From NCBI GenBank assembly GCA_022478985.1, contig JAKSZP010009550.1, positions 31,501-95,500 of the forward strand: a stretch of DNA of 64,000 nt, written 5' to 3'. The DNA is from Massospora cicadina (taxonomy: Eukaryota; Entomophthoromycota; Entomophthoromycetes; Entomophthorales; Entomophthoraceae). Of this stretch, positions 5,912 through 46,222 are shown piece after piece; position 1 is the stretch's first letter, and each line of letters starts with the position of its first letter. The position numbers and the translations under genes were made by a program. A model generated the notes under the pieces. It had not been told where the DNA came from and did not search any database. It worked only from the letters and a program-made list of their open reading frames with translations.

Positions 5912-5943
5912 TAGTTGAGTTGTCAAAAGCCAATTTAAAAACG

Positions 5944-7190: not shown

Positions 7191-7839
7191 GATTCCTCAA
7201 GAGGATAATGAAACTTCCCAAAATTCGGGAAAAGGCCTTGTAGTTTAGATTTGGAACTATCTAGCACTGCAAGAGAACCTGTTCCACCAGATATCTACTT
7301 GGAATAAAGTCATCGGCAAGACCAGCTAGGGTTGCAACTGGGTCTGCCATGAGAAGTCCCAAGGCGTTAAATGAGATCAGAAATGTTAGGTGATTAATCC
7401 AGAGAATAGTGGATGAAGTCAGTTGATCTTAAACTGGTCATTTAATGAGCAAACGCAAGAAATGACAAATGTAGGATCTGATCCAGATGACTTTAGCAAA
7501 GAAAAAAGTCACCAAATTAATCTGTGCGAGTAGTGGATCATTTACAGATCTATCAGCAGAATTAATTAAACGGATTAGTTGGAAATTAAAGCCAAGAAAT
7601 AGTATCAAATCTATACAAAATTAGATAGAGAAAAACGTATTCATTGACAAGAAATAGGTTTAGATCTTGATGAATTTGGATTGAGAAAAATGGATTAAGT
7701 TAATATGTGCACCCAGAGGATTATGTACAGATCTATTGGAAGAAATAATCAACGTTCAAGTTGGCAAATAATGCAAAAAAATAGGATCAAATTAAACTTT
7801 TATCTGCTGCCTCAAATTGATGATGCTTGAGCACCTGGG

Positions 7840-8078
7840 TAAGGCAAAATAGTTTTCAGCTATGGGCCTGATTTTGGGCTAATGTCAAATTATATTTTGT
7901 TTAGTACTAGATGGTCCCAACCCAAGGGGGGATTCATCGATGTTGTCAAATTATATTGCTATAAAGAAAATTGGCAAATGTGCAATACTTACCACACATG
8001 GACTATACCAGCTGACCAGAATGCCCCAAGATTATGCAATGCACCGGTGACTGAAAAAATGCTGTTCAAATTTTTATA
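7840..8078 (+). pseudogene. T4 reverse transcriptase fragment, split by S1
   Basis: Removing the 47-bp S1 insertion plus one duplication copy leaves FSAMGLILGxCQI, KCAILTTHGLYQLTRMPQ and, after a frameshift, LCNAP. These correspond to the SGYxQI and MPQGLCNAP blocks of a Ty3 reverse transcriptase. The YxDD box and everything up to the integrase C-terminus are missing, which points to an internal deletion. Confidence 0.6.
7897..7943 (-). mobile_element. S1, 47-bp micro-retroposon
   Basis: The insertion is flanked by perfect 14-bp copies of TGTCAAATTATATT (7883-7896 and 7944-7957). On the minus strand it starts ACATCGATGAATC, runs through a C-run, TTGGG and TTGGGACC, and ends CATCTAGTACTAAACAA. 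The same 5' start and 3' end occur in S2 at 44310 on the other strand. A long target duplication and an A-rich 3' end are hallmarks of target-primed reverse transcription. It is far shorter than usual SINEs and has no room for an internal polymerase III promoter. Confidence 0.85.
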
Positions 8079-8089
8079 GGTGGAAAGCC

Positions 8090-8350
8090 ACATTACTGCC
8101 AATATTGTATTCAGCAGTAGAGCCAGCTTCAGGGATGAGTGCTGAACAATATTTATCTGACTGGCCAATATTCTGATTGAATTACAATCTCAGGAATTCA
8201 AAACAGCAATGAAAAATTTAAAAAAATGGGAAAAACGAGTTGGACGCCTATGGATGGGACCATTCAAATTTCAAGTCAACAAATGATACCTGTATGATTG
8301 ATTATTGAAGATGGTCAAATAGGCAACATGTCCACACAAATTACGTAAAG
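8090..8350 (+). pseudogene. T4 integrase C-terminal fragment
   Basis: The text around 8100-8200 matches T1 (GGGATGAGTGCTGAACA is shared), and MGPFKFQVNK at about 8247 is the GPF/Y motif. The frame has stops right after it. The DDE core is absent. Confidence 0.55.
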
Positions 8351-8386
8351 TATTGGGCATAAGAAAAAAATATATATATAAAAAGA

Positions 8387-8921
8387 TTAAAATAATAAAA
8401 AGATGCATAAAAAAAGTAAAAAATTAAAAACAATTATAATTTGAGCAGTGATGCATCTAGCAAAATTCCCACCTACCAAGCGTGGAGGAAGGGATAAATT
8501 AATGTGCATGAGTCCTGAGCGGTTGACAGGATCAGGATGGGCTGAAACTAGATCTGCCAGAATAGTCCCTATCAATATATGTTGAGACCCATCCTGGGGT
8601 TGGTACAGGTGGCAAGGTGCCAGCAGAACCCATCCTGGGGTTTTTACAGGTGGACCAGTTGATCTTTCAGCAAATGATGTGAAGCTGGGACTGGCGCGGC
8701 ATGATGTCATGAGGACCTGCGCTTGAGAAGAGGCGGCAATGGGTAGCAACCAAGGATACAAAGTCATCAAACTGAGGTGAGCATATGGGCGTTGAGTGTG
8801 GACAGACCTACACTCCGCTGAGGACATAGAGATATGATAAACCAAATATGAGCTCAAGCTAAGTCAGCTTCCATCCCTGAGGGTTCTATCTTCCATTGGA
8901 TATCTGGTCAAGAGGGGGATA
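8387..8921 (-). pseudogene. T4 antisense frame next to polypurine tract
   Basis: A 156-codon frame (8857-8387) with ATG start is open on the minus strand. PYAHLSLMTLYPWLLPIAAS and SQAQV line up with SYAILGNMAPLF and PQSAV of T3. It is Ser/Pro-rich in the middle and ends in a hydrophobic stretch (FNFLLFLCIFLLF) that could span a membrane or may be chance from AT-rich DNA. A 41-bp period duplication lies at 8587-8653. The protein, if made, has no recognised family. Confidence 0.4.
8909..8921 (+). other. Polypurine tract of T4
   Basis: CAAGAGGGGGATA ends directly at the TGTCAGAAT LTR start; T1 and T3 have the same context (CTGG(A/T)CAAG). Confidence 0.7.
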
Positions 8922-9877
8922 TGTCAGAATCTCAGATGACCATATAATCCAACCTTTTAACCGATTAATAGATTTGATAATTAAATTATAATCATATAGG
9001 ATCAACACCATCAGCTGATTAATGAAATTATCATCAGTCATCATCCCTGATAATCTTTGAGGCCGCCAACTAATGAAATTATCATCAGGAATCATCTCCA
9101 ATAATACTTGAGGCTGCCAACAAATGAAAATTTCGGGCATCATCCCTGACAAAATTAAACAATAATTTGAGATTGGAATAACACCTGATAGTCAAATTAA
9201 AGGGAATCATTCAGAGCATAACAGATTGGAGTCATTGGAAACTACCAAAACGTTTGAACGCTGGAGGAAGAGTAGAATCGTCATTGGCCAAAACAATTGG
9301 TTTCAAGTACCTAATACCAATTGTTTGGTCCACTGAACACCCGAGGATTATGCTGCCTAAGAAACCCAAGGCAATGGTACCCAATGAAATTTGGTGCCTA
9401 ACACTGAGGGTCAAACCATTATAGGAGCACAAATAATTCCCAGCGGACAGCTGAAAAGTTATGTGCCAATTCTAACTATATATACCCCAAATTACTACCT
9501 AATAAAAATAGATTCAAATTGATATTAATTAAGTTGTTTTAACACTGGGATGTTTTAACATTACTCTTAAGAGAAGAGTGCAAGGATCAGATTTCCTTAT
9601 GTTAGTTTTATCAAATTTCCGCTTGGCTCCGCATGAAGAAAATAGGGAATTGTTCCCTACCAGATTAGATATATCTTCAAGAGGAAGAAGCACCTGTCTA
9701 GCGTTGGACAATTCACATAGTGTGGCTTTTGGGGATTCAACTCTAATAATAGTCTTCATACTATTATTGCCCCAGTTACTCAATTTTAATCAAATAATCA
9801 ATGCAAGAATCCATGAATCTGTGCAGTTAAAATCTAGGGCCAGAAGCGAGCCATCAACCAAGCCCAAGATTTCAACA
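8922..9877 (+). repeat. 3' LTR of T4
   Basis: It begins TGTCAGAATCTCAGATGACC and ends ATTTCAACA. It is highly similar to the 5' LTR along its whole length, so T4 is not among the oldest insertions here. An open frame across its right part (9578-9940) is a by-product of reading from the LTR into T3 gag. Confidence 0.85.
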
Positions 9878-15222: not shown

Positions 15223-15238
15223 TTTACTAAACTTATCA
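15223..15238. repeat. Target duplication of LINE L1, left copy
   Basis: TTTACTAAACTTATCA here and TTTACTAAACTTCTCA at 20469-20484 differ by one base. Confidence 0.8.
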
Positions 15239-15242
15239 GTTT

Positions 15243-16740
15243 TTAAATTTTACCTGGGGAAGGCCAACCATGGGCTGGACACTTACAATAAACTCCAACT
15301 ACAAAACACCTAGAAAATAACAAAGGGCACCCCAGAGGAGCCGTAGCTACTTCCTGTTGCCAGCGGTACTGCCAGTGGAAGGAAGAGGCGGAGTGACAGG
15401 GTAGGCCTGGGCCAAAACTGAACACGATGAAGGTAAGGATCCAATGAGAGGAACCAGATGTGAAACCAGGATGACACCAACTGGAGTTGGCTGGATGGCA
15501 GGCGGCCAAACAGCCAAGCTTGAAAGTGATCCATAAGGTGGCAATGGAAGCGATGAACAACTTCACATAGGGTTGGGGTAGTTCCAGAGAGTTCATCAAG
15601 GACAATGGTGTGTATCATCCATAGCGCTATTGCAACAATTAAGGCGCAGAGCAATGAGTGGATAGGGGAGGTCATGGAAAAGGCAAAGATGTTTTTGGAC
15701 AGGTTAAGCCTAATCACTCTCCTAGCAAAAGAGGCACATAACATCTCGGAAGTTTGCCTGTGATGGCGGGCAATCTTCCAAGTGATGGACTAAAGATACA
15801 TATTGATTGCATAAAACACATGAAGTTTGAGAGGCATTGGACCGCTCAGCTGTGCGGTACACTTTTCTCAGGCATCTCCATACATGGGCGCGAATTTGGG
15901 GCTGTAAAAGAGGATGGTGTGTGCACCACAAAATGTCTTTCTGGGTCTCCAAGGAGTATGGTATGTCGAGCTTGTCAAGGTAGTCCACATGGACATTGAG
16001 TTGGGGATGTAGGTGTACTAGGTTATTTAAAACGCCTTTCCCATGGACTTCTTGTTTGAAATGGGGAGTAGGGCGACCCCTCTGGACATTGTGCCCACTG
16101 ATGTTGTTTCTCCACTCAGCGCTCCACATGAAGAGAAGAATTTGCTTGAAGTAAATCAACGTCCCATGGGGGCCAATGGAAGAGGGATGCAAGGCAAGAT
16201 ATTTTAGCAGAGAATGGGAGTGGGTAGGATTTCTGAGGCCCAGGGCACAGGAAAAGTTGGAGCGGGCTGCGCGTGACCAGTGTTGGGCATAGAGTGTGGG
16301 GTTGGTGACTGCAGCTTCCAGGTGCCAAGTATTTTGGCGGCATGAAGCCTCAAAGTTGAGCAGGCCCATACCTCCACTATGGCGAGGGAAAAACATGACA
16401 TTCAGGCGCACTGGCAGTAGGTGGCCTAACCAAAGCCACCCTTGTAGGAGGGCGTATAAAGAGGTTAAGAAAGATGGTGAAAGGCGATAGCATGGGCCAC
16501 AATCCAGACTTTTGGACAGGAGCATAGAGTTGACTAGCACAACCTGGCCTGGGAGGGTAGTCTGGTGGTGCTCTGAGGGAAACGATGTGCTTTGTGACAT
16601 TGTCTATATTCTGGTTCTCCCATCACCAATGAGGCGTACCCTCCCACCTCCAGCCATACACCCAAATGGCGGACTGGACCAGCGGTGGGTCTTGGCACAA
16701 AAGTGAGCACAAGCGGGGCGGTATGTGGTGGGCGGGGCAA
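15243..16740 (-). pseudogene. L1 ORF2 C-terminal region with zinc finger
   Basis: The main open frame (16600-15722, 292 codons) reads GWLWLGHLLPVRLNVMF, FMWSAEWRNNI and CVLCNQYVSLVHHLEDC. The last is the CxxC...H...C finger common at the end of ORF2 in L1-type LINEs. Frames at 15744-15243 continue to the 3' end (VAIALWMIHTIVLDELSGTT). The same order occurs in L2. The finger probably helps bind the element RNA; that is family knowledge, not shown here. Confidence 0.75.
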
Positions 16741-16799
16741 GTGAACCTGTGAGCTAGCTGCTGAAGCAGTTAGGTAACAGGGCTCTGGTGACCAACGGG

Positions 16800-17790
16800 C
16801 TTGGTGCTGGCCAAGGAAGATGAATTTGATTTGGAGGCGTTGAGTACGGCGTTACTTACCCTGGAATAATTCTAGATAGTAGCCTCAAGCGCGCGTGCAT
16901 CTTGGTTGTTAGACACCCCCACCACACAATCATCAGAAAATGCCAGCATCTTAACTGGTGCTTGGCCTTGCACGTGGACACCAGTAAGGCGGGCATTCAC
17001 ATTGCATAAAAGTGTGTCAAGGCTGAAGTTGTACCATAGTGGGATTAAAGGGTCCCCTTGGAGGAGGCCCCTTTTTGTGTGAACCACATTAGTGAGGAAA
17101 CCAGGGCCACGCACCGCCATTGAGGTGGATTCCGTAAGCAACATCGCCCAACTAATGAGCCTATGGAGAAGGTAGAACTTGTAGAGGCAGGCTTTGAGGT
17201 AATCCCAGTTGACCCTATAATAAGCCTTCTGCTGGTCTAAGAAAACAAATGCCCCAGTAGCCGTGTATTATCAGAAATTGGCTACAGTGTGTATGTTGTC
17301 CCATATAGACCGCTTGGAAATGAAACGAATTGTTCAGAGGAGACGATATCAGGAGCAACTTCCCCTAGGCGGTTGGCCATAATTTTAGTAAGTAATTTAG
17401 TATCTGTGTTAGTAAGTGATATGGGGCGCCAGTTGGCCAGTTCCATCTTAACCCCTTTTTTATACAGCGTTATTGTGTACGCATCCTGGCCCCCAGGAAG
17501 GAGGCACGTTTCTAACAAACACTGGTTCATAGAGACAAGCAACAAAGAGGAGAAATAATCAAAATATCTCTTATAGAACTCATAAGGAATCCCATCTGGA
17601 CATGGGCATTTCCTGTGCTGTGCACCACAAACGGCATACCAAAGTTTGTCCCAAGAAACTAAATTCACCAATTTGGGTAAAGAGAAACAGTGTGATATGT
17701 GCACTAACAAGAAATTAATCAATTTTGACCTGTTCAACTGAATTGGAGAGATACAACTCAGATTGATAGTTTTGAACTTCAATTGCCACT
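16800..17790 (-). pseudogene. L1 ORF2 reverse transcriptase
   Basis: 17782-17282 holds CPDGIPYEFYKRYF, NWRPISLTNTDTKLLTKIMA and SSEQF. After a frameshift, 17144-16872 holds RGLLQGDPL, LWYNFSLDTLL and MLAFSDDCVVGV. These are RT blocks in the expected order; the catalytic box FADD reads FSDD here (FADD in L2). Non-LTR reverse transcriptases of this kind synthesise cDNA at the nicked target. Confidence 0.8.
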
Positions 17791-18299
17791 TTGGCTGGAG
17801 TTTTGGTGATGGAGTGGTCCAGCCTCTTTTGTGTGCAGGCCAAGTTCTGTTGCAGTGCGAAGAATTTTTTAAAAGTTAGGCGGAGCACATGTCACCCACT
17901 CTGACATTTTTTGCTTTGAACTGAACATAAACATAATGTTTGTGTTACCATACCAGTGCATTGAGATGAGCAGACACATCTGTTCATTTATGATCTCAAG
18001 CCGAGCTGTAGCCTGTAGAAGGGATATTAGACTCCAGGTGGTCCACTTCTGCAAGCGTGCACTTAATGAACACCAATGCAGCCCGTGAGTGACGCAATGA
18101 GAGGTAGCGTGCCTGACGGATAATGTTTGCTTTAAAGGTTGACCAGGTAGTAAGTGGGTCCGCACAGAATGGTGTGGTGAACTCTAGTGCCAAAGTTTTG
18201 GTGTCCACCCATGAGGTAAATCTGGGCGACATGATCTTAGCTGAACAATGCTTTCACCACTTAGGTAACTGTGCCGCTGAGTATGACAAAGAGAAGGAA

Positions 18300-19000
18300 A
18301 TCAACATCAACCTGTGATTGGAGAAATAATTTTTGTTATTGTAAAGTGTGCAACCTGATACCAAAAGTGCAATGGGGCAAGAATAAGGTCAATGCTGGAC
18401 AAAGACCTCAGCTGACCGTTGTGCACATGGGATGGGACATGTTGGGTAGCAGCAGCGCATGTTTATGGAGGGTATCAAACAGCCCAAAGTGGCTTAAAAT
18501 AACGCTTAGTTTGACATGCCACTGCGAGGGGTGGGCGTTGAAGGCCAGCGGTAAATAGCCAGGTTGGACCAGCAGTTCAGGTCGCCCATCACAAACGAAT
18601 CAGGAGGAAGTGGAAAGGAAGTAAAGGCTGAGAGGAACTCATAGCGAGCCCATGCACTGGTTGGGGCGTAAATATTAATTATAGAATGCACTTCATCATC
18701 CCATGAAAAGGGAAAAAACAAGCACACACCCGTTGAGGTACAAATTAATGAAAATAAATTTAAAACTACAGGTTGCACATATAAGCACCCCACAGTGCGG
18801 AAACCAAAAGGAAAGGGAGGGGAGGAGCATGGTTGCCCATGTTTCATTGGCACCGTGTAGACAGTAGGTTTCCTGAATGGCAGGATGTCCACAGGTAAAT
18901 TATTTTTTTAAAACTCAGTTTCCTAGCCTGGGAAGGCAAGGCCTTGAGTCCAGCGATGTCTAAAGTCCCTATTGTGAAGGTTCCCCCCATGAAACCCTAG
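18300..19000 (-). pseudogene. L1 ORF2 endonuclease domain
   Basis: The minus-strand start near 18990 reads MGGTFTIGTLDIAGLKA (L2: MGETFTLGTLNIARLKA). The open frame 18892-18506 contains SIINIYAPTSAWARYEF and VMGDLNCW, the NIYAP and GDLN blocks of the AP-like endonuclease that nicks target DNA. Frameshifts separate the two parts. Confidence 0.7.
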
Positions 19001-19279
19001 ATGCAATGGTAAGGGCCCCTTTGCCTTTTCAGCTCCGCTTGTTCAGCAAAACCTTTGCAATTGAAGTTTTTGGCCCTGTGTATGAGACTTTGAGGATTTC
19101 TTTCACGCTGGGTTTATTTTTGTTTTTTAAGTTTTTTTTGAGATTTAACTAGAATTTTAGAAATGGTGTGCTCCTACGGTGCATCATTGGAGGTTGACAA
19201 AAATCAGGATATAAATGGATGGTAGAATTGGTTTCAATTGAGGCTTGGTAATTTTGTTCAGGTAAATCCAACTCTCCCA

Positions 19280-20400
19280 TCAGGTCCTCAGGTTGGTTGC
19301 CCATTCTGATTGGTGAGCATATTCTTGAGCTGCTTCAGCAGCAAATGACTCAATGCCATCCTGGGTCTGGGCAGGCAGGATCACAGATGTGGCTGTGGCC
19401 GCTGCCTTGGCCGCTGCTCTGCAGGCCTGTTTGGCCTTCTTGCACTCCTGCGGGGACACAGGTATGACCTGAATATAACACCCCTTGTGCGCCCTAGAGG
19501 AAGGCGGCGTCAGTGTCAATAGTCAGTTCATAATGAGAGTCTGCACTGCCCATTGCATTGGGGAAGATTTTGTTTTGCGTATTGCCCTCTCTGGAAAGTT
19601 ATGTGTGAACCTTGTGGCCAAAAGCGCAACAAAAGGTGCAGATAGGGGGTGTGCTATCCACCATGATGTAGAACGGGCAGATATTCTGTCTTTCAATATA
19701 CACAACTACAGTGTGAGAAATTTGTATCAAGTCTTCTGTGATGACCACAGTTGGGGTGATCACTGCAATTGCTTTGCCCATGAACAGGTCCGGCATAAGT
19801 GTAAAGCATTGAATTTTGAAGGAGTGAAGTTTCCCATAGCTCTTGAGCTCAACCATGAGGTGGTGATCCAGCACTGTGCGCTTTATCATTGTGGGGAGGA
19901 AGTCAAACGTCAAGAAAGTTTAGTTTGATTTGGTCCAAAAGCGCTTTGTTTCAACCAAACATTGACCATCTAAGAGTTCTATTACCACATGCACCTGTGC
20001 AGCTTCATCCGCTGCTTTTTTATACTCAAGCCCAAGATCTAATCAACTGTGGGCCATAGAGTGCAGTGCAACATATACTTCGTCCAGAAAGTGTTCATGC
20101 ACTTCTCCACAGAACTTTTCCCAAAGCGCCGTTTGGTTAATATCCAGGAAAACTTGAACCCCGTGCTCCACTGATGACAGGGGCTGTGAATGCAGAGTTT
20201 TGATGAACTGATTGCATTTTGTTTTCCAGGCTAGAATCTCTGGGGAAATACACACTGTCTGTTTTTTATTTTTATCTAGGCTGCCAATGTCGCTGGGGCA
20301 TTTACAAACTTTAAACAGTAGAAGAGCCTTATCCTGTGCCCTTTACTTTGCAAGCCCAACTGCGATTTGACATTGGGTGCACACTAATCTCCTAGAAGTG
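19280..20400 (-). pseudogene. L1 ORF1 (RNA-binding protein, broken)
   Basis: Pieces at 20255-20043 (VFLDINQTALWEKFCGEVHE), 19913-19599 (MPDLFMGKAIAVI, ending ICTFCCAFGHKVHT) and 19519-19280 (an Ala-rich AKQACRAAAKAAATAT stretch) follow the same order as in L2. The CxxCxxxGH motif is a knuckle that lacks its last Cys. ORF1 of such LINEs coats the element RNA. Confidence 0.65.
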
Positions 20401-20484
20401 ATTAGCAAACTTATCTAGTTTTAAATCAAATTTGTTGCGATTAGTGATTTCAATGAGAAAGAAAAGTTTTTACTAAACTTCTCA

Positions 20485-33053: not shown

Positions 33054-33283
33054 CTTCCCCTTCTTGACTTGACATATCTTCTGATAGGAGTTCTCAGGAG
33101 GTTGAGTGTTATAGTAGAGCCTGAGAAAGTTCGCGTGAACCCTGTTATTAATTTTTCCATTAAGCATATTATTAATGGTATAGACATCATAGGATGAGCG
33201 TTACATGATTAAATATGGCCCTTTCCAGAGCATCAACACCTTGTGTTTTCATCTGAACCCATAGGTGTCACAGTAAGATCCTT

Positions 33284-33300
33284 TTTTAGTACTAGATGGT
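33284..33300 (-). mobile_element. S3, 17-bp micro-retroposon
   Basis: The minus strand reads ACCATCTAGTACTAAAA, exactly the 3' end of S2 and (with a small tail change) S1. Perfect 16-bp copies of TCACAGTAAGATCCTT flank it (33268-33283, 33301-33316). It lies in decayed T7 integrase/3' sequence and looks like a 5'-truncated copy. Confidence 0.8.
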
Positions 33301-33329
33301 TCACAGTAAGATCCTTAATTACTTGCTTT

Positions 33330-34765: not shown

Positions 34766-35652
34766 GTAATAAACTGGCTCTTTCCAGTATTTGACAAAAG
34801 CGTTGGGTAACACCAATCAGGTGATTGTCCACAACCCAGAAAGCACCCCAGATAAAACTCTGTATGCCGCATACCGCTATTTGAGGGTGATTAGACCTTG
34901 AAATAGGTATAAGATGGTACTTAGTCCTAACAGCGGCCCTTGAACCCAGGAGAGGGCAAAGAGGGATTCCACCAATTGACTTATTTCATTCTCTTGGCCA
35001 TGGAAAAGGCGTTCATAATAGTATATCCTGTCAAACAAGGATAAAAATTTATCTATATTTGAAATGAGTTTTTTTAGCAGAAACCGCGTAAATACACAAT
35101 ACAGAGAGATAAAATCTCTCCAATTCCCATTTAAATGCATTTAAAAATGTATTAGTATTGTTGAAGTCTGTTAAATTAATAATGGTGCCAGTTTATGATC
35201 TTTATCAAATTAAAGATATAAAAGTTCAGTGTACCGCTAATTTTGGAGGCCTATTTATAGCATGATCCTCCAAGGATGATTAATTATTAACATAATGATG
35301 AAAATGGAACCCATTATTGGTAACTTATATACAAGGGTTTTTATGAAATTTTAATGAATTAATCCAATCACTCAGACATACCACCATTTTGTAACACCTA
35401 ATTATAAGGTGATCCCTTTATTATATTGATTGAGCTGAATTATAATTTGTATCAGATAGTTTATTTAGTAATTTCCCCAGATTAAAAATCTCAGATCAGT
35501 TGGATCCCTAAAAGGTATAAAAGTGCATTTTTTATTTCTAAAATAGGCGCCAGATTGTGTGCCCACCTAAAATGCAATTACCATTTGTATTTTGTAATTA
35601 GTATCTCAAATCAGAATAATGTGATGGTCAGAAATCCTGTACCGTCATATCA
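34766..35652 (-). repeat. 3' LTR of T8
   Basis: It pairs with 45325-46222 (shared GGGTAACACCAA, AGCAGAAACCGCGTA, TGTGTGCCCACCTAAAATGC). On the minus strand the polypurine tract CTCAAAGGGGGG (35653-35664) precedes it. Confidence 0.85.
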
Positions 35653-35659
35653 CCCCCCT

Positions 35660-35840
35660 TTGAGATAAAAACTCCTGATCTCCTCTGGACAATGGCAACA
35701 ATCCTCAGCTGTTTGCTGAGTAGATTCCTCAATGGTAACCTCTCTATTTTACCATAAATTTGCGTTGCCCGCATATCAATTTACTGTCCACAATCTGCTC
35801 AATCTCATATTCAGAAGATTTACAAATTCAGGTTAGAGGG
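35660..35840 (-). pseudogene. T8 chromodomain
   Basis: The minus strand reads SSEYEIEQIVDSKLICGQRK, then FMVK-stop-RGYH. This is the EYEVExIxDxR...YLVKWKGY signature with the central Trp (TGG) changed to TAG. In chromoviruses this domain, fused behind integrase, directs insertion toward methylated histone H3 chromatin (family knowledge). Confidence 0.85.
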
Positions 35841-35849
35841 GAAATGCCT

Positions 35850-36016
35850 TCTTTGAAGTAATTTGTAAAAAACTTGAGTTGGGAAACATGGATAGGAGGT
35901 GTGCTCTCAATCCTTCTGGTAAGGATAACTCAAAGTCCACTGGGTTTACTTAACTTATCACCTTGTATGATCCAATCCAAACAGGACCAAACTTTTTGTG
36001 TGGAACTTTAGTATTT
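35850..36016 (-). pseudogene. T8 integrase C-terminus, distal half
   Basis: VPHKKFGPVWIGSYKVIS, VNPVDFELSLP (minus strand) is the GPF/Y-type end of integrase. Its other half lies across LINE L2 at 41399-41660 (QKADKKMQSNSRIKMGSYVL, IYSWN). Confidence 0.8.
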
Positions 36017-36033
36017 TAGTTCCAAGAGTAAAT
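36017..36033. repeat. Target duplication of LINE L2, left copy
   Basis: TAGTTCCAAGAGTAAAT, identical to 41382-41398. Confidence 0.95.
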
Positions 36034-36136
36034 TTTAATTTTGATTTTGTGGGGAAGGCCGACCATGGGATGGACACTTCTGAATATGATTCAGAAGAGA
36101 CAAAACTTAGTACCAGGAAAGGCACCCCAGAGATGC

Positions 36137-36138
<2 letters not shown>

Positions 36139-36202
<64 letters not shown>
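36139..36202. repeat. (TC)n microsatellite inside L2
   Basis: 64 bp of TC dinucleotide with one irregularity at about 36187. On the minus strand it reads as Arg-Glu or Glu-Arg repeats near the ORF2 C-terminus. L1 has no such repeat at the matching place (about 15330-15350). Confidence 0.95.
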
Positions 36203-36203
36203 G

Positions 36204-37300
36204 CTATCTCTTGTTGCCAGCGGGAACGCCACTTATGGGGAGGGGGAGGGAACGTGTGATGGGGCCATAGCCACAGTTGAACACATGTGTAGGAAGGGGT
36301 CTGATTTGATGAACCAGACTGGGAACCAGGAGGAGACCAGCTGTCAGCAACGCGGTGGGAGGTATCCAAACATCCACGCTTGAAAGTGGTCCACCAAATG
36401 AGACCGGAATTTGTGGACAGCTTCTGGGAGGGTGGGGGTGGAGCCTGCGATGGCATTTAAGACAATCGTATGGATGGTCCACATGGCGATTGCAACCACC
36501 AAAGCATGGAGGGAGGGTGGAAGGGAGGAGGCCATTGATAGAGAAAACATATCTCTTGACAGACTGAAGGGATGCGTTTGATCCTGGCCCAGCAGACGTT
36601 GAACTTCGCGCCATATCACTTTAGAGGTAGGGCACTTCTCCAGGCTGTGGAACAGCGTTCCATACTGGCCACACACGACACAGGATGAGTGTAAAGCGTT
36701 AGAGCGCTCGGCTGTATGATACACCCACCTCAGGCAGTGCCACTCATGGGAGTGGACTTGGGGCTGCAACAGAGGATGGTGTGCGTATTTCCAGATAGTT
36801 TTTTGGGTTTCAATGGAGTAAGGGATGTCCATCATGTCCAGGTAGTCCACCCTGGATAGGACATGGGGCCGTGTGGGGATCACGCCATCTTGGATGGGTA
36901 GCCCCTGTACCTCTTGTGTGAACTGAGGAGAGGGGTGGCCTCTGGGCTGTGTGTCTGCTAATACAAATTCTCCACTCAGCGCTCCACATGGAGAGGAGGA
37001 TTCGTTTGTAGTGGGTTTTAGTCCCGTGAGGGCCTGTGGCCGATGGGTGTGAAGCGAGGTATTTCATCAGGGAGTGTGGGTTTGATGGGTTGTTGAGGCC
37101 CAAGGCTCAGGAGAAATTGGAGCAGGCCGCGCGGGACCAGTGTTGGGAGGGGAGCGTAGGGGCGGTGACAGCCGCTATCCAGGTACCTAAGATCTTGGCA
37201 GCATGGGCTCTGAAGTCGAGCAGACCCATGCCACCTTAATGGTGAGGGCCAAACATGACCTCTAGCCGTACTGGTGTAGGGCGGTCTGACCAAAGCCATC
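36204..37300 (-). pseudogene. L2 ORF2 C-terminal region with zinc finger
   Basis: 36883-36344 (179 codons) contains DYLDMMDIPYSIETQKTIWK and the finger CVVCGQYGTLFHSLEKC, then AIAMWTIHTIVLNAIAGSTP. 37299-36810 holds the preceding part (LLSMWSAEWRICI). Same order as L1. Confidence 0.8.
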
Positions 37301-37399
37301 CTTGCAGCAGGGCATACAAGGATTTGAAGAAGCTTGGGGAGAAGGGGATGGCGTGGGCTCCAAACCAGACTTTGGAGAGGAGCATAGAGTTAGCTAAAA

Positions 37400-38640
37400 C
37401 TACCCTGCCAGTAAGGGAAGTAGGGTGGGCTCTGAGAGAGGTGATTTGCTTCGTCACGTTGTCCAGAATACGGCTCTCCATTACTGCTGAGGCATACTCG
37501 CCTGCCTCCACCCAAACCCCCAGATGGCGGACAGGCCCAATGGTAGGGCGTGGCACGAAGGGGAGCACAAGTGGGGCGGTGTGGGGTGGGCAGGGAAGGC
37601 GAGCACGTGTGAGAGCAGATGGGCTGGGCTGGACACAAGTTGCTGGGGCCAGCAGTTTTGATACCAACCAAGGAGAATGATTTCGGTTTTGGAGGCGTTC
37701 AGTGCAGCATTACTTACCCGGGAATACTCCTGGATGAGAGCTTCAAGTGCGCGTGCATCTTGATTATTAAACACCCCAACCACACAATCATCTGCGAACG
37801 CCATCATCATTACTGGGGGCTTGGCCTGGCACGTGGACCCCCAGTGAGTTGGGCATTCACATTTCGCAGTATTGGGTCAAGGCTGAAGTTGTATAAGAGT
37901 GGGCTGAGGGGGTCCCCTTGTCACAAGCCTCTTTGAGGGCGGAATTTTCCGTTAGGAAGCCAGGGCCACGCATTGCCATTGTTGCAGATTCCGTGAGCAG
38001 CATCACCCAGTTGATGAAGCGAAGGGGTAAGCGGAATTGATGGAGGCAGGCCCTGAGGTATTCCCAGTTCACTCTATCATAGGCCTTCTGTTGGTCCAAG
38101 AATACAAGTGCCCCAGAGGCTGTGGACTTACATGCATTAGCCACAGAGTGCACGTTATCCCAAATCGACCTTCTGGGTATGAAGCCAAATTGCTCTGGGG
38201 AGATGGTGGCAGATGCTATAATCCCTAAATGATTAGCCATGATTTTTGTTAAAGTTTTGTGTCCGTGTTGGTTAAAGAAATGGGGCGCCAGTTGGCTAAT
38301 TCTAGTTTATCCCCTTTCTTGAAAAGTGTGACAGTAAAGGCCTCATGTCCTCCTGGTAGGAGGCGCGTTTCCAAAAGGCTCTGGTTAAGTGAAGCAAGAA
38401 GTAGTGGGGATATATATTTGAAGTATTTTTTGTGAAATTCATATGGGATGCCATCTGAGCCTGGGCATTTCTGGTTAGGTGCACCACGGATGGCTGTCCA
38501 TAATTCGTTTGGAGTAATTAAATTCATTATTCTTGGGTATCAAGAAATGGTGCGAATGTGGGCTCAGTTAAGAAATTCTGCCACTTCGCCTGGCTGAATT
38601 AAATCAGATTGGTATAACTCGGAGTAATACTTCTGTGTTT
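37400..38640 (-). pseudogene. L2 ORF2 reverse transcriptase
   Basis: 38527-38249: CPGSDGIPYEFHKKYFKYIS, ANWRPISLTNTDTKL. 38240-37857: SPEQFGFIPRRSIWDNVHSV, GALVFLDQQKAYDRVNWEYL. 37810-: MMMAFADDCVVGVFNNQDAR, LNASKTEIILLG. All RT blocks are present, with frameshifts between them. The first catalytic Asp (FLDQQKAYD) and FADD are intact. Confidence 0.9.
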
Positions 38641-39199
38641 CAATTGCCACTTCAGCTGGTGTATCCGCGGTGGAATCATCCAATCTTTGCACCTGTGTGC
38701 AGGCCACACTCTGGCATGGTGCAAAAAAAATTTAATAAAGTATGCGGTGCACTTGTCACCCTTTGTGATGCGTTTGGTCTGTATTGAACACAAACCCAAT
38801 GTTTGTGTTGTCTTTTGAGCGCATTGAGATGGGCGGCTGCTTCTGCCCATTTCCGGCCCCATGCAGGGCTGTATCCTGAAGCAGGGATATTGGACTCCAG
38901 GTGTGCCAATTCTGCCAGAGCGCGCGAAATGATTGCTGATGTGGCTCATGAGCATCTGGAGGAGAGGTGGCGAGAGTGGCGGATGGTATCCTCTTTGAAG
39001 GTTGCCCATGTGGAGATGGGGTCTGCGCAGAACGGTGTTACAAACTCTTTTGTCAAAGTTGCTTCTTCCACTCAAGTGGAAAATCCTGGCGACGCGAGTT
39101 TGGGGGGGCAGAGCTTGCACCAATGTGGGGCCCTGGCCACTGTGGTGGGTAGGTGGTAGGTTATCGAGACCATTCAGTGGTCAGAGAATTCCATTTTTG

Positions 39200-39860
39200 T
39201 TGTTTTGAAGTGGGAGATGTGGGGTTGGAATTTTGCCAGCGTTAGGATAAGGTCGATGCGGGTCATGGACCTTAATTGGCCATTGTGGATGTGGGGGCGC
39301 ATCATGTTTTTGAGCAGTGGGGCATGTCACAGCAGCGCATCCATTAGCCCGAGGGTGGCCTTTAGAACGCGCAGTTCTACATGACCCTGGGGGGCGTGGG
39401 GTGAGGAAGGCCACCAGTCCGTTGGTGTATTTAGCCAACAGTTCATGTCGCTGACTATGAACAGGTTTGGGGGTGGTGGGAGGGATTTGACTGACAAGAA
39501 AAATTCCTGACGCTCACGTGCACTGTTTGGGGCATAGATATTGACAATTGCGTGTGCTACGTCAGCCCACAAGAAAGTGACAATGAGAACTCGGCCATTT
39601 AGGAATGTTTCTGATGATACAAATTTAAAAGAGATTGTTTCTCTGAACTAGCACCCCACAGTGCTCTGACCAAAAGGATAGGGATGGTAGGAGCATGGAT
39701 TTCCAATCCTCCTCAGAACCTCGTGGACAGTGGGACTCCTGGATGGCCAGGATATCCACAGGTAAATTTTGTTGTAAAAAACTCAGTTTCCTAGCCTGGG
39801 ACAGCGAGGCCTTGAGTCTGGCAATATTCAATGTACCTAAAGTGAAGGTTTCCCCCATCG
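39200..39860 (-). pseudogene. L2 ORF2 endonuclease domain
   Basis: 39858-39625: MGETFTLGTLNIARLKASLS, VDILAIQESHC. 39572-39327: AIVNIYAPNSARERQEFFLS, SDMNCW (GDLNCW in L1). 39290-39180 in another frame: the closing S-D-H block. This is the order of an AP-like endonuclease, including the QE and D(L/M)N metal-binding boxes. Confidence 0.85.
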
Positions 39861-40189
39861 CACCTTAGGTGCGAGGGGGTGGGCACCTGGGCCCACTAGC
39901 CTCCTCTAGATCCCCATGGGCCTTCACAGCAGCGCAGGTGTTAGCAGCAACACTATCAGGATTTTTGTTGATTTTAGCAGAGAGGTTTGCGTTGGCTTTT
40001 GCCTTCACTTTTTGTTTCCCCAATGTCAGACGAATTTTTTGTGATGTGGATATGGGTGATTGTGGTGCATCAATGTTCTGGTCAAAGAAAAAGAAAATTT
40101 TTGGTCGGATTTGCCCCAGGTCAGTTTCAACTGGAGCTTGGTTGCAATGATTGGGTGAGATCATTCCCCCATCGGATCCTCAGATTGGG

Positions 40190-41230
40190 TGGCCTAATAG
40201 GCATGGGCTTCCCTATCTGATTGGATGATGGATTCCTGATTTGCTTCTGCCACAAAGGTTTCAATGTCCTCCTGACGTTGGGAGTGTGGGATAGCAGTGG
40301 TGGCTTTGGCCGCTTCCTTGGCTGTGGCCCTGCGGGCCTGCTTGACCTTCTTCCACTCTTGTGGGGAGATGGGCTTTACCAGTAGGTAGCAGCCTTGTGC
40401 TCCCCATGGGAAAGCCTCTTTGGTGCTTACAGTTGGTTCATAGTGCGCCTCTCCGCTGGCCATGGCCGCTGAGGGGTGCTCTTGGAATGTGACGCCCTCC
40501 TTGGTGGGTCATGCATGCGCCTTATGGCTGAATGCATCACAGTGGGTGCAGATGGGGGGCGCGCTGTCCACAGTCACCCGGAATGGGTGGGTGGTATGCC
40601 CTTCAATATTAATAAAAGTGGAGTGTGGGATCTGGGTTAGGTCCTTCATGATCTCCTCAGTTGGGGTCAGAACTGCAATGGCTTTGCCAGTGCACAGGTG
40701 TGGCATCAGCGTGAAGCGTTGCATCTTGAAAGATTGTATTTTGCCATATATGGCGAGACCATCTTTCAGGTGTTGTTCTAAATGTCACATTTTGCCGTAG
40801 TAGGCAAATAGTCAAACGTGAGGAAAATTTGGTTTGATTTTGTCCATCTGGTGCGTTTGGTTTTGATGACCCATTGCCCTTCAGGGAGGTCAACCACTAT
40901 GTGCACTGCAGCAGCCTTGTCTGCTGCCTCTTTGTTTTTGAAACCTAGGTCCAGCCAACTGCATGACATGGAGTGAGGTGCAATGTACACCGCGGTCAGG
41001 AAAAAGGTGTGCACATCTTCACAAAATTTTTCCCATAAAGCCGTTTGTTGGATGTCCAGAAACACGCGGACTCTGTATTCCACCGGCAAAAGTGGCTGGG
41101 AGTGCAGCGTGTTGATGTACTGGTTGCATCGTGCTTGCCATGTGAGTATTTCTGGGAAAATAGTGACCGCCAGTTTTTTAAATTTCTGTCTATTCTGCCA
41201 GTTTCTCCAGGGCATTTTTGAACGTTAGAG
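40190..41230 (-). pseudogene. L2 ORF1 (RNA-binding protein, one main frameshift)
   Basis: 41215-40778 (145 codons) reads EILTWQARCNQYINTLHSQP, VRVFLDIQQTALWEKFCEDV. 40724-40509 ends in ICTHCDAFSHKAHA, a CxxC...H knuckle. 40463-40194 is Ala/Lys-rich (KQARRATAKEAAKATT). It sits just before the endonuclease start at 39858, the usual ORF1-ORF2 order. Confidence 0.75.
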
Positions 41231-41381
41231 GCTGCAGGCCTTCCACCTGCTCCTCTTACCTTACTTGCCCAACTGCTCCCTGACATGGGCGCAGACTAAT
41301 CTCCTCTGTGAGATTATTAAACTAGATTCAGACTTAAATTGAATAGGTTGCAAAAGTGATTGCAAAGAGAAAGAAAAGTTG

Positions 41382-41398
41382 TAGTTCCAAGAGTAAAT
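41382..41398. repeat. Target duplication of LINE L2, right copy
   Basis: TAGTTCCAAGAGTAAAT, identical to 36017-36033. Confidence 0.95.
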
Positions 41399-42500
41399 CA
41401 ACACATAGCTTCCCATTTTTATTCTAGAATTGCTCTGCATTTTCTTGTCCGCCTTCTGCTTCAGGGCTTTACTGACTGATCCAGATGTTGCTTTAGAAAT
41501 TTTGAGAACTTCTTGGCATTCTTGGCGATCTCATCCGATGTGGGGTTCTGCCCTCCCACTGAGGGGTCCCAGGGGTCTGGATGATACCCAAGATTGGCAA
41601 ATAAAGAAAACAATCCAGTTTATTCAATTAACAGGTCGTTTTATGAATACTGGGATAATCTTAACTAATACCTTCAGTCTTTATGACGTCTAGATACATA
41701 GCAATGAAAGTATAGTTCAAGCACTTGATTTAATCTCTCTGTATGACCATCCAATTGGGGTTGGTAGGCAGAGGATTGGTAGGGCTTGATCTTTAGGTTT
41801 GTTAGTAGATGGTTATAAAACTTTGATTTAGATTTTGGTCTACAATCAGATATTATCTTCTCTGGCACTCCATGGTGAGAGAAAACTCGCTCTAAAAACA
41901 AATCTCCCAACACCTTTAAAGTTATCTGGGCGGAATATGAAATGAATTCCACGTACTCAATTAACTGGTCAATGACAACCATTATGGAGTCCGTTTCCCT
42001 GAACTTAGGTATACAGGAGATAAAATCCTCACTAATGGATGTCCAGGGCTTGTTGGGACTTTGCAGGGCATCAACATCACTACGGGGAGATTAAATTTAG
42101 GTCTTGACTCAATCACAAGTCAGATATTGCACACATAACCGTTAACTCTTCTTACTATCCCAGGCCACAAGTATTTTCTAGTGATTAGCTCCATGGTTTT
42201 GGTGGCCTCTGATGTCCAACCAACGGATGGTTTTGAAAGACCTCTAAACCTCCACTTATAAACTCCCAGATGGTACCCACATCTTTCCGCAGTAATGGAT
42301 TTCATTCTCATCCTTTCTAAAATTCTTGAATTTGACTAGAGTTCCATTAATCAGCTCTTTTAGTATCATCTTCCCATATATGTGTTCTTTCTTGGCATAT
42401 TTAATTCTTTCGTTGATCCCACTAGCACCATCTTTAATTAAAGAAAACATTAGTAGGCAACATGGTGGCAGTATTTATATTATCTAGCTCAAGGTCGTTA
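41399..42500 (-). pseudogene. T8 integrase: finger, core and proximal C-terminus
   Basis: Zinc part: GYHLGVYKWRFRG, TRKYLWPGIVRRVNGYVCNI (42311-42120). Core: MVVIDQLIEYVEFISYSAQI, HHGVPEKIISDC, YQPQLDGHTERLNQVLELYF (41982-41674), with the D-D-E residues in place. C-terminus: ALKQKADKKMQSNSRIKMG up to IYSWN, where L2 interrupts it. Confidence 0.85.
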
Positions 42501-42559
42501 TAAGCAAACCTAGGGTCCCTTCTTGGAAGGTTATAGAGTAAGTTCACCTTGTCTGGGCG

Positions 42560-43080
42560 GTATTCAATCTTAAAAAAAATTGGGCAACTCCAAATGCTGA
42601 CGAGATTGTCTCTAGTTCATCCATTGTGGCTTCTTATAGAATTTCAGAACTTTATGATCAGTCCAGATAATGATGGGCCAGTGCACGTATATCAGGTGGT
42701 GTTTCCACTCCTGGAGGAACTCCACTATTGCCAACAACTCCTTAATGTTGATAGGGTAATTGACCTTTTTTGGATGCATCTTACAACTGAAATAACAAAT
42801 GGAATTTCTATACCATCCTCTCCCTGTTGAAGAAGTACAACGCAGATTACACAGTTGTATGCATCAGATTCTAGTAAAAATTATTTCTCCAGGTTATCAT
42901 GAGCCAAGACAGGGGCTTCAAAAAGATTTCTTTATATTTCTTGTAAATTTCTTCTTCAGCGCCCCAACAAAAGGGCACTTTCCCAGTTAACCTAGTTAGA
43001 GGTACAGCCACCACGGAAAGGTCCTTAGAGATCTGCCTCAAGAATTTGACCATTCCAGAAAAGCTTGTAAGCTAGTTTGA
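42560..43080 (-). pseudogene. T8 RNase H
   Basis: 43053-42871 gives MVKFLRQISKDLSVVAVPLT, RLTGKVPFCWGAEEE. 42800-42600 gives NYPINIKELLAIVEFLQEWK and IIIWTDHKVLKFYKKPQWMN. Typical Ty3 RNase H blocks with a frameshift between them. Confidence 0.8.
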
Positions 43081-43093
43081 TCAGTTGAGGCAT

Positions 43094-43924
43094 TCAATCC
43101 CTTGATGGCCTTAATCTTGTCAGGGCATATCGCCAGTCCCCCTTAAACACCACGTTCCCCAAAAACGTTACTAATGACTTATAGAACTCATAGTTTAAGG
43201 GTTTCAGTTTAGATCCTACATCATAAATGACTTTCAGGGCAGACTTGACATACCTTATGTGCTGTTCTTCAGACTTGAGCAATATTACATTGTCCATATA
43301 GGCAATGCAACAACGTGCCAATGAATCGTGGAGCACATGACCAACTAGCCGTTGGAAAACATCATTGGCAGTTCTTAGGCCAAAGGCATCACCCAATACT
43401 TAAAAATCCTAAATGGCACTTAAATGCCGTGAATTTTGATACTTTGGGTGTACTGGTAATTGATGAGATGCCTCTACCAGATCCAACTTAGTAATCCAAG
43501 TGCTTCCTGAGATCATTATCAAGATGTTCTCAAAGAGTGGTAGTGGGTAAGAATATGGTATAGTCACTTTATTAAGCTTATGGAAGTCCATGCAGGGGCG
43601 CAGCTCTCCACTGTCCATAAGTACCAGCAGGATTGGGGAGACCACGGAAGATTTGGAGGGTACAATGTATCCAGATTTCAACATGGAATCAATATACTTC
43701 TCTAGCGCTTCTTTTGATCTTTGGTTCAAGGTGTAGATGGGACATCCTCGGGGAAAATCATAGTCTGCCTTGAACTGGAAATTGATGGAGAATGGACCAA
43801 ATTTGTCAAATTTGGGGAGTTCACAAGCCCTGAACACATTGTCAAACTCATCATATTCTTTGGATAAAGCACTATTGAGTGGCTTTTCCAGACAAGATTC
43901 CAATCTTGGCTGATGTAGACCCAC
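43094..43924 (-). pseudogene. T8 reverse transcriptase
   Basis: 43924-43409 reads DSMLKSGYIVPSKSSVVSPI, LLVLMDSGELRPCMDFHKLN, SYPLPLFENILI, WITKLDLVEASHQLPV. 43396-43094 reads FGLRTANDVFQRLVGHVLHD, CCIAYMDNVILLKSEEQHIR. The catalytic box is YMDN in place of YxDD. This is a nearly complete RT domain in two frames. Confidence 0.9.
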
Positions 43925-43984
43925 AGGTTGTATACTTCTACTGGATGGGTAAAGAATCGGATGGGTAAATAGTGACCTTATTGT

Positions 43985-44292
43985 TCAGCATATTGAACTG
44001 TGGGGTGAATTGATGCCACATTTCATACCCAATACCACAGGGTAGGGAAGGTGGTTAAGAGTGAGGAAGCTCTCCTCCAACATCTGAACCCCTTTGCCAA
44101 TTTGGAGATGTTTTCCCACCCTCCAAAAAGCAACAGTTTGAGTAGAGTCAGCTAAAGACACCTTGCACGCATCCTTCAGAGGTAGATTCAATTTTTTTGC
44201 ATGTTCAATTCGTATGTAGTCCTCATTGGCCCCAGCGTCTACTAAGGCTGTCATCTCTTCTTGGTTTTGGAAATCAACTATTTTTAAGCGGT
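43985..44292 (-). pseudogene. T8 protease
   Basis: MTALVDAGANEDYIRIEHAK is the active-site block (usual D-S/T-G reads D-A-G). It is followed by LNLPLKDACKVSLAD and PVVLGMKCGI, the retropepsin fold order. Just upstream (44293-44371) the S2 micro-insertion interrupts the frame. Confidence 0.8.
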
Positions 44293-44309
44293 AAAAGTAT
44301 ATAGGAGTA

Positions 44310-44354
44310 CATCGATGAATCCCCCCCTTGGGTTGGGACCATCTAGTACTAAAA
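44310..44354 (+). mobile_element. S2, 45-bp micro-retroposon
   Basis: It starts CATCGATGAATC, runs through seven Cs and TTGGGTTGGG, and ends ACCATCTAGTACTAAAA. Perfect 17-bp copies of AAAAGTATATAGGAGTA flank it (44293-44309, 44355-44371; the A-run makes the edge ambiguous by a few bases). It lies inside T8 coding sequence upstream of protease. Removing it and one duplication joins the frame (TPIYFYRLKIVDFQN). Confidence 0.9.
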
Positions 44355-44657
44355 AAAAGTATATAGGAGTAATGAGCAGTGGTTTTTTATTAGTATGAAT
44401 TTTGCAAACAGGAGCTGGAGATGAAAGTTGCTCTGGATCACCCTGGACTGAGCCTTAGAGGTTCACTACTGTTGCAACTTTATGGCCTCATTAAGAGCGC
44501 ATGGGTTGTTCTTCTTGGTTTTGATTGATGAGGCATAGGGGAATCAGACTCTCCACGGCGAAAGTCCTTCCCTTTTCCACTCTTGTACCCCTTTGCATAC
44601 ATAAGATCCATTTAATTCTTAAAATTTTAAATTGACGTTCTATGTTTATGGCACACT

Positions 44658-45095
44658 CTATCTCCTCCTCCGAATATCAGCTAGGCGCATTGCCACTAAG
44701 TCTGAGAGAATGTCTGGGTGTGAGATTTGTATAAACATTCGTGGAAGCTGTGAGGGAGCAACTTTAACTGCTTGGGCCAGTGAGCGGAATAAATGAACAT
44801 ATTCCTCCAATGAACCCTTCCCCTGAGTTGTCAACAACAAATCTGACCAGGCTGCATCTTGGCCCACATTGGGACAAGCAACATGATAAACCAACTTGAG
44901 ACAATCATCAAGTTTCTCAAGCAAAGTCTCTTTCTTGTCCAGGAGAGCTCTAACCCAGGTGTCAGACTTATTGGTTAAATCGTTTAAATCTTGAGAAATT
45001 TGATCAGCGAGTGTAGGAGTCCCTCCCACTACCATGGTTAGGCAGCCTTTAAAACAAACCTTGTCTAGAACCTCATGAGCTTTTCCTAAAACCAT
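44658..45095 (-). pseudogene. T8 gag
   Basis: A 145-codon open stretch reads DLNDLTNKSDTWVRALLDKK, AWSDLLLTTQGKGSLEEYVH, LFRSLAQAV, the shape of a Ty3 gag domain. Between it and protease (44254) further gag sequence is decayed and no zinc knuckle could be seen. The order gag-protease-RT fits. Confidence 0.7.
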
Positions 45096-45324
45096 AGTTC
45101 TCAGGAGAGCTGAACGGAACTGACTTTAATTGAAGCAGCTTCATAGTTAACAGGCACTGGTAGCCACCCCTTCATCATCCAATAAAATTTCGCTCAGCAG
45201 GAACACCAACGAAAAGATGATAATCAGCATAGTAGTTGGATGCTAATATTTAAGCAGGTAAGAGGGCTTAAATAGCATTCTCCTTTAATACTTCTCACAT
45301 GAATTAAAAGGTATGTGAGTTCTG

Positions 45325-46222
45325 TGTAATGTACCAGACTGGCTCTTTCCAGTAGTTGACAAAAGTGTTGGGTAACACCAACCAGGTGACTGTTCACAAC
45401 CCATAAGCATCCCAAATAGAAACTCTAGATGCCCGCATACCACTATTTTGAGGGTGTTTAAGACCTTTAAATAGTTTATTATGATACTTATCTCTGCCAG
45501 CGCCCCTTGACCCCAGGAGAGGGCATATAGGGGTTCTACCAAGTGACTGAGTAAAGTATCTTGGCTCAGGATAACTTGCATTCACTATAGTATATCCTGT
45601 CAAACAAAAATAGGAAATTTTAGAACTTTATAAGTTAGATTTTTATTTAGCAGAAACCGCGTATTTACACAGAATTGAAAGATGAATCTCTCTAATTCCC
45701 ATATAAATGCTTTTGAAAATGTATAAAACTTTTTAGGTCTATTAGATTAACAATGATGTCAGTTTATGAGCTTAGCAAATTGTATGTATATAATTTCAGT
45801 GTCCACACCAATTTTAGAGGGCATATTTATAGGCATGATCCTCCAGGAATGATTGATTATTATCTGAATGATGAAATGGAGCACATCTTCATTTTCTTTA
45901 TATCAGGTTTTTTTAAATGTGATTCGTGTGAATTACTCTGTTCATTTGGAAATTTCATAATTTTGGAACCCCTATCTATAGATTGATCCCAAAATTTTAC
46001 TGGCTGAGCTTGATTACCACTAATGTCAGATTAACCATATGATAAATGCCTCAGAACTTCAAATCTTTGATCAGTTAGATCCATCAAAAGCATTAAGAGG
46101 TCTTCGTTCATTGCTAGGTTGGGCGCCAATTCTGTGTGCCCACCTAAAATGCAATTATTATTTTTTATTAACATAATCTTAGATTAAATTAATGTGGTAA
46201 AAAATATCCTATACCATCACAC
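45325..46222 (-). repeat. 5' LTR of T8
   Basis: On the minus strand it starts near TGTGATGGTATAGG and ends near GTACATTACA. A conventional primer-binding site is not obvious; CTGGTACATTACACAG at the inner edge is a weak candidate. Confidence 0.8.

Follow-up and report, generated by a model that had tools for sequence, protein, structure and literature searches.

How does an insert of about 45 bp come to lie between two perfect copies of a 17-bp sequence? This question is raised by the locus S2 in the window, by which we mean the whole stretch of 64,000 nucleotides that was analysed. An earlier note on this DNA took S2 for a retroposon and for the founder of a family of micro-retroposons, and pointed to two more loci with the same 3' end. 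Here we argue that S2 and these two loci, S1 and S3, arose by aborted target-primed reverse transcription (TPRT) of an L1-type LINE, a reading to which we assign a probability of roughly 0.8.

Three short insertions in the window

The two copies of the duplication around S2 proved to be identical, and the loci at 7897 and 33284 share the 3' end of S2 and are enclosed by duplications of their own, just as the earlier note had read them; these duplications measure 14 bp and 16 bp, respectively. The insertions, the older elements that contain S1 and S2 and two further LINEs are located as follows:

44310..44354, + strand: S2, the 3'-terminal 44–45 nt of an L1-type LINE; its 5' end is the last A of the LINE's AATAAA
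44293..44309, + strand: S2 target-site duplication, 5' copy, 17 bp, AAAAGTATATAGGAGTA
44355..44371, + strand: S2 target-site duplication, 3' copy, 17 bp, identical to the 5' copy
7897..7943, − strand: S1, of the 44-nt class like S2, an independent insertion; one C breaks its A-tail (AAACAA)
7883..7896, − strand: S1 target-site duplication, A-tail side, 14 bp, exact
7944..7957, − strand: S1 target-site duplication, 5' copy, 14 bp, exact
33284..33300, − strand: S3, of the micro class, the last 16–17 nt of the LINE that is the source of S1 and S2
33268..33283, − strand: S3 target-site duplication, A-tail side, 16 bp
33301..33316, − strand: S3 target-site duplication, 5' copy, 16 bp
34773..45880, − strand: older element containing S2, with paired end repeats (34773–35308 and 45338–45880) that are 22.8% diverged
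4945..9871, strand not assigned: older element containing S1, with 0.94-kb paired direct repeats that are 9.8% diverged
36034..41381, − strand: LINE-A, apparently full-length, L1-type, of another family, with a 17-bp duplication (36017–36033 and 41382–41398)
15235..20468, − strand: LINE-B, a second, diverged L1-type LINE, apparently full-length, with a 12-bp duplication (15223–15234 and 20469–20480)

S1 and S2 carry the same 43-nt sequence, the sole difference being one extra C in the C-run of S2. Depending on where the ambiguous boundary between A-tail and duplication is drawn, the S2 insert comes to 43 to 45 nt, tail excluded. The 17-nt 3' end is matched three times in the window when up to 3 mismatches are allowed, compared to a mean of 0.24 in 100 shuffles, none of which reached three. 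Direct repeats of at least 16 bp lying 20–150 nt apart were found four times (simulated mean 0, 20 simulations); these are S2, S3 and, at 5063 and 9020, two repeats of a local, tandem-like kind. When the window was scanned de novo for inserts with an A-tail, S2 and S3 were returned together with 8 weaker candidates with repeats of 11–12 bp, on a simulated background of about 2.5 weak candidates per simulation (10 simulations). The window holds 3 copies of the S type in 64 kb, which is close to the genome mean of one per 45 kb (32,483 in 1.47 Gb). At two other places short direct repeats enclose small segments, i.e. 15-bp repeats around 26 bp at 8587–8642 and 12-bp repeats around an A-rich segment of 24 bp at 11826–11873.

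The host element of S2 carries pieces of a Ty3-like gag, protease and integrase with Pfam scores under the curated cut-offs. When the insert and the second repeat are taken out of the S2 site, a single open frame runs into the Ty3-like protease region (Pfam gag-asp_proteas, 5.5e-6, slightly under the cut-off). The 0.94-kb repeats around S1 are probably LTRs. This pair (4945–5886 and 8928–9871) is the younger one in a group of nested LTR-like elements at 3717–13776 and is enclosed by the outermost pair, 3717–4770 and 12718–13776, which is 16% diverged. Retrotransposon-like repeats also occur near S3. Because S1 and S2 differ from each other by one C only, as against a divergence of 9.8% and 22.8% between the repeats of their hosts, both insertions are, judged by divergence, probably young relative to their host elements. 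LINE-A and LINE-B are 71% identical to each other over 2.26 kb, and a long (GA)n run lies near the 3' end of LINE-A. The source LINE of the S copies shares 28–69% identity with these two over aligned translated stretches; on such alignments it is a relative of both from a different family.

The source LINE and the lengths of its copies

The source of the insertions is an L1-type LINE of roughly 6.2 kb, of which S1 and S2 represent the last 43–45 and S3 the last 16–17 bases. A unit that is the tail of a LINE of more than 6 kb speaks against S2 as a founder and against the processed 44-nt RNA that the earlier note had also considered. One copy (L112) encodes both Exo_endo_phos (PF03372, 3.5e-8) and RVT_1 (PF00078, 3.4e-31). 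By sequence, the PDB entries closest to the reverse transcriptase (RT) are 8c8j, which is labelled RNA-directed DNA polymerase only, and LINE-1 ORF2 proteins (1e-42 to 8e-42), with R2 matching at 5e-27 or weaker. The 5' part of the LINE contains a direct repeat of about 378 nt (L111:307–1060, L112:362–1115), and the spacing between a 5' marker and AATAAA falls into classes that differ by this repeat unit (about 5.80 kb in 5, 6.17–6.21 kb in 26 and 6.95 kb in 1 of 32 cases).

Genome-wide, the terminal 15-mer CCATCTAGTACTAAA has 32,483 matches in the 1.47-Gb assembly (reversed control: 1) and the 11-mer TAGTACTAAAA has 42,921 (reversed control: 3,137). Further upstream patterns become rarer: GGGTTGGGACCATCT is matched 11,176 times (1 for the reversed control), ATCGATGAATCCCCC 6,879 times (0), the AATAAA-spanning pattern AATAAACATYRATKAATCCCC 2,856 times (0) and the 5' marker ATGAAAGCAGGCACC, about 6.2 kb upstream, 2,499 times (0). 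These exact-pattern counts are lower bounds of unequal tolerance, as subfamilies with TCAGG or TCGGG escape some of the patterns; their steps match those in a sample of 103 copies in direction and rough size. Ascertainment by the exact 15-mer misses inserts of less than 14 nt. The excess of the 11-mer over its control is about 39,800, i.e. some 7,300 above the 15-mer count, and this surplus takes in copies with a mutated CCATC. Inserts of less than 15 nt therefore account for no more than about a fifth, and it is unlikely that ascertainment produced the peak at 15–18 nt.

The sample consists of the first 100 listed matches of the 15-mer (contigs C1–C7) plus S1, S2 and S3. Already the first eight loci comprised 3 long copies with AATAAA before the 43-nt unit and 5 copies of about 17–26 nt. 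Over all 103 copies the LINE match is at most 31 nt long in 72, 42–51 nt in 21 and long in 10, where the class limits depend partly on a single alignment rule: a copy with a 41-nt insert by its duplication (L025) and one with perhaps a 39-nt insert (L087, weak 10-bp repeat) were placed in the short class. The long copies are 8 with a match of at least 504 nt, the reference copy ending at 507 nt, and 2 with matches of 60 and 96 nt, which were counted as long as LINE sequence resumes past internal deletions. Altogether 93 of the 103 sampled copies are shorter than 52 nt, and the range of 52–500 nt is almost empty in this family. One main-family copy (L008) ends at about 507 nt and has a 12-bp repeat at that distance. 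In a second sample selected by ATCGATGAATCCCCC (n = 24), 19 copies end 1–6 nt upstream of CATCG, 17 of them within 1–2 nt; the remaining 5 run for at least 400 nt, to or nearly to the end of the retrieved stretch.

Copies that extend beyond the signal are mostly long. Fifteen-mers located 184–299 nt upstream of the end of the AATAAA pattern are present in 15 of 15 long copies, those at about 358 nt in 14 of 14 and those at about 900 nt in 9 of 10. Two long copies traced upstream are collinear (97.6% over 5.25 kb), and the 5' marker was found 5.8–6.9 kb upstream on the same strand at 32 of 42 AATAAA places (contigs C1–C51); in the remaining 10, truncation, a deletion, a mutated marker or the end of a contig may account for its absence. 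At the opposite extreme, the shortest LINE scar seen is an insert of about 7–11 nt, TACTAAAAAAA, between 16-bp duplications (L035:871, + strand), the only one of its kind in 301 kb of sequence looked at. At L086:1184 (+ strand) an 18-bp direct repeat surrounds TCTCAAAAAAAA, which might be a local duplication or else a micro insertion from a further family.

Flanking duplications were searched for as exact repeats of at least 11 bp within 135 nt. They surround 78 of the 103 copies (59 short, 19 middle), compared to 0 of 512 mismatched flank pairs. The 25 copies without one include all 10 long copies, the other end of which lies beyond 135 nt; by another criterion, 9 of the 72 short and 2 of the 21 middle copies have no clear duplication. 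The duplications vary in length from 11 to 19 bp (exact), as is typical of L1-type LINE insertions. Their first two bases are A in 68 and 65 of 78 cases, the base just before the duplication is T in 37 of 78, and one base further up T (35 of 78) or A (30 of 78) is found. The target sites are TT|AARA-like, the L1 type of nick, for which the pattern TT/AAAA is given in the accessible part of a study of L1-made insertions (PMC5322556). The A-run has a mode of 7–8 in the short, middle and long classes alike, bases shared with the duplication included; therefore short and long copies seem to begin at the same place and with the same type of tail. A common 3' end with an A-tail and truncation at the 5' side characterize the copies as L1-type insertions. 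Microhomology at the 5' junction is uncommon, with none at 39 of 57 junctions. The common 3' end, taken from an L1-type LINE, and the independent duplications support retroposition by LINE-type machinery, in agreement with the earlier note.

The stop at AATAAA and its possible causes

From the 5' end common to S1 and S2 the earlier note had concluded that truncation is not random, and this holds: the 44-nt class stops at the last A of AATAAA. The 43-nt unit is present in 53 copies, drawn partly from the unselected sample and partly from the set selected by a stretch of the unit. Of these, 38 end at this A and 15 are longer, so that the unit is not embedded in a longer one at most loci. The base before CATCG is A in all 38 short copies, and the next base upstream is free (AA 13, TA 13, CA 6, GA 6). 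Between the end of the duplication and CATCG lie 0–1 nt in 27 of the short copies and 2–3 nt in 8, with one copy each at 5, 8 and 30 nt. The template reads AATAAACATCG; therefore most cDNAs of the 44-nt class ended about one base into AAUAAA. Calculated per base over the 103 copies, the stop frequency is 0.20 at position 16, 0.03–0.12 at the other stops up to 31, nil at 32–41, 0.03 at 42 and 0.40 at 44. A few copies appear to reach 45–51 nt, partly by chance matches. Two variant types of the LINE are common to the 44-nt and long classes; the types TCA and TTT occur in the 44-nt class only, and TCG in one long copy only. The suggestion that a LINE 3' end is always left at a stop of RT in its G-rich stretch was right as to the LINE 3' end and the stop of RT. 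The last A of AATAAA, however, where the stop occurs, lies about 20 nt beyond the G-rich stretch. Nor does every copy stop there: 72 of 103 extend for no more than 31 nt, and another 10 are long.

A second LINE family has a diverged 3' end (CTAGTGCTAAA), and 1,004 places in the genome match its middle part. It is represented by a 46-nt insert with a 16-bp duplication (L049, − strand, about 1617) and by a 25-nt insert of its type with a duplication that is imperfect by eye (L083, − strand, about 1729). We considered 22 copies, namely 20 of 100 listed matches (new copies L113–L132) plus L035 and L049. AATAAA is present within 14 nt upstream in 14 of the 22, and 6 further copies are similar upstream by eye with AATAAA altered. 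The 2 short copies, L049 and L130, start 0–2 nt past the expected place of AATAAA; in L130 upstream similarity is lost (11/30 matches) and the duplication is imperfect. According to its 17-bp repeat, a further copy (L122) measures about 165 nt, a length between the classes. The stop position recurs in the second family, but the short class is rare among the copies examined. Given these few short copies and L122, the 44-nt stop and the empty middle range are therefore not shown to be general.

Bases 11–39 from the end of the source LINE might form a hairpin. This putative structure folds no better than shuffled sequences (z +0.20 to −1.13). Its outer stem differs in a compensatory manner between the two families (GAUG/CAUC versus GUGG/CCAC), and on this one compensated stem we base the hypothesis of a 3' hairpin.

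According to the abortive TPRT reading, the endonuclease would nick the target and the T-rich 3' end of the nick would prime on the short A-tail. RT would then meet two obstacles. At the first, the possible hairpin, most cDNAs would end, at 15–31 nt; the second would be the boundary of AAUAAA, at base 44. A cDNA that stalled would nevertheless be connected to the upstream end, and filling of the gap would leave an insert of 16 or 44 nt with a full duplication. Perfect duplications around inserts of this size would be expected, because aborted cDNAs would be joined and filled like any others. RT that has passed AAUAAA would usually continue, mostly to near the 5' end.

What stops RT at AAUAAA may quite possibly be a protein located there, either the LINE's own RNP or a polyadenylation factor. 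A pause that is intrinsic or due to structure is put forward tentatively as another cause. RNA that was cut beforehand is an unlikely one, because an exonuclease blocked at this place would be expected to keep AAUAAA in the fragment. Since AAUAAA adjoins the putative hairpin in both families, a bound factor and a boundary in the RNA or for the enzyme are inseparable here. It is well established that a polyadenylation factor binds to AAUAAA. We regard it as rather doubtful that RT copies RNA still held by the nuclear 3'-end-processing complex, in which case the factor bound to AAUAAA would be the block at base 44 and the uniform, very short tails would be nascent oligo(A). If true, retrotransposition would be tied to the formation of mRNA 3' ends, copying would change from abortive to long once the complex was displaced, and thousands of near single-base footprints of this complex would be present in the genome.

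Other explanations differ in the origin of the short template or of the stop. LINE RNA might already have been cut or decayed to oligo(A)-tailed 3' fragments of about 44 and 15–31 nt that were then fully copied, which would suit the sharp 5' end of the 44-nt class and the recurrent RNA breakpoints reported for LINE-1 chimeras, in U3 fragments (PMC13174262, accessible part). The ends of the class of up to 31 nt are spread out, however, the A-run mode is equal in short and long classes, and the fragment lacks the AAUAAA that a blocked 5'-3' exonuclease should leave; we consider such templates improbable. Host end-joining proteins might also capture the cDNA early, as with zebrafish L2 in chicken cells, where ZfL2-2 insertions are longer when Ku70 and Artemis are defective (PMC2666801, accessible part). 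Host repair alone predicts neither the sharp AATAAA stop nor the scarcity of source-family copies at 52–500 nt, and 5'-junction microhomology is uncommon, which makes it a quite improbable main cause. A separate 44-nt small RNA or mini-SINE with S2 as founder or daughter would explain why S1 and S2 have both ends in common. It is very improbable nonetheless: a 6.2-kb LINE ends in the 43-nt unit, two variant types of this LINE are found in short and long copies alike, Rfam has no family at threshold (relaxed matches E 1.6 or worse), and a tRNA scan detected no tRNA gene in the window. DNA transposition or filler from break repair shares with the S copies the short inserts and direct repeats; with duplications varying from 11 to 19 bp, a fixed 3' end with an A-run and targets that begin with A, we give it next to no weight.

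Some known categories were considered in addition. As the unit is a LINE 3' end with support from neither Rfam nor the tRNA scan, the S copies are not SINEs in the sense of an origin from a pol III small-RNA gene, and a resemblance to 5S rRNA was dropped, 5S being absent from the Rfam matches to the S pieces. They do not belong to the DNA transposons or MITEs, having duplications of 11–19 bp, one A-tailed end and one variable end, nor to the tailless retropseudogenes, as the 3' end is fixed and an A-run is present. The S pieces had no match in plasmid, prokaryote and viral collections; a 17-mer of the S 5' part matches two viral contigs, neither of which continues as S. Among viral contigs, two LINE/Ty3 protein pieces from the window had no relatives, and a text search for the S sequence strings in papers returned no occurrence.

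Significance and comparison with known systems

Our best reading is that copying of this LINE usually aborts some 16 to 44 bases in, and that the genome has thereby accumulated thousands of tiny scars. LINE truncation is an old and poorly explained fact; here its spectrum is stepped rather than smooth, with an abortive phase, one sharp barrier by the polyadenylation signal and then mostly long copying. With thousands of natural end points in a single genome, the stopping of LINE RT becomes directly testable. The finding also suggests that counts of annotated copies would greatly underestimate LINE activity in such genomes. An insert of 16 nt is likely to escape repeat finders, and each micro insertion still cuts a locus and duplicates about 15 bp. 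In a literature search that covered few subscription journals, and many papers in part, we did not find a stepped truncation spectrum with a class of 15–31 nt or an AATAAA stop.

The S family and mammalian LINE-1 have in common target-primed insertion, a TT|AAAA-type nick, variable duplications, a common A-tailed 3' end and an encoded endonuclease and RT, and among solved structures the source RT is nearest to 8c8j and LINE-1 ORF2p. In contrast to LINE-1, 93 of 103 S-family copies are shorter than 52 nt with almost none at 52–500 nt, there is a sharp AATAAA stop, the A-runs are short (mode 7–8), and the 5' marker is present in 32 of 42 long copies. L2-type LINEs recognise a 3' stem-loop. They resemble the S family in that the 3' end is conserved and a possible hairpin directly precedes the priming site; in a sequence comparison with L1 and R2, the source RT is nearer to L1.

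For mouse, L1 insertions of 162 bp to 6.4 kb are discussed in the accessible part of a report that classes those of 100–400 bp as 'short' (PMC11084082). Mammalian tailless retropseudogenes are likewise short L1-made insertions with duplications, for which the accessible part of the study sets a minimum length of 30 nt (PMC5322556); as described there they are without the RNA 3' end and tail, whereas the S copies keep both and are without the 5' part. The Magnaporthe MGL LINE, Mg-SINE and WEIRD chimeras are also LINE-made with direct repeats of 10–20 bp and show non-random template break sites (PMC2104539, accessible part). According to the same text they are fusions formed by template switching, whereas the S copies derive from a single template and mostly end within 44 nt. 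The accessible parts of two further papers describe ZfL2-2 insertions shortened by end-joining proteins (PMC2666801) and a catalogue of chimeric LINE-1 insertions (PMC13174262). In its stepped form, the truncation of this LINE resembles abortive initiation by RNA polymerases.
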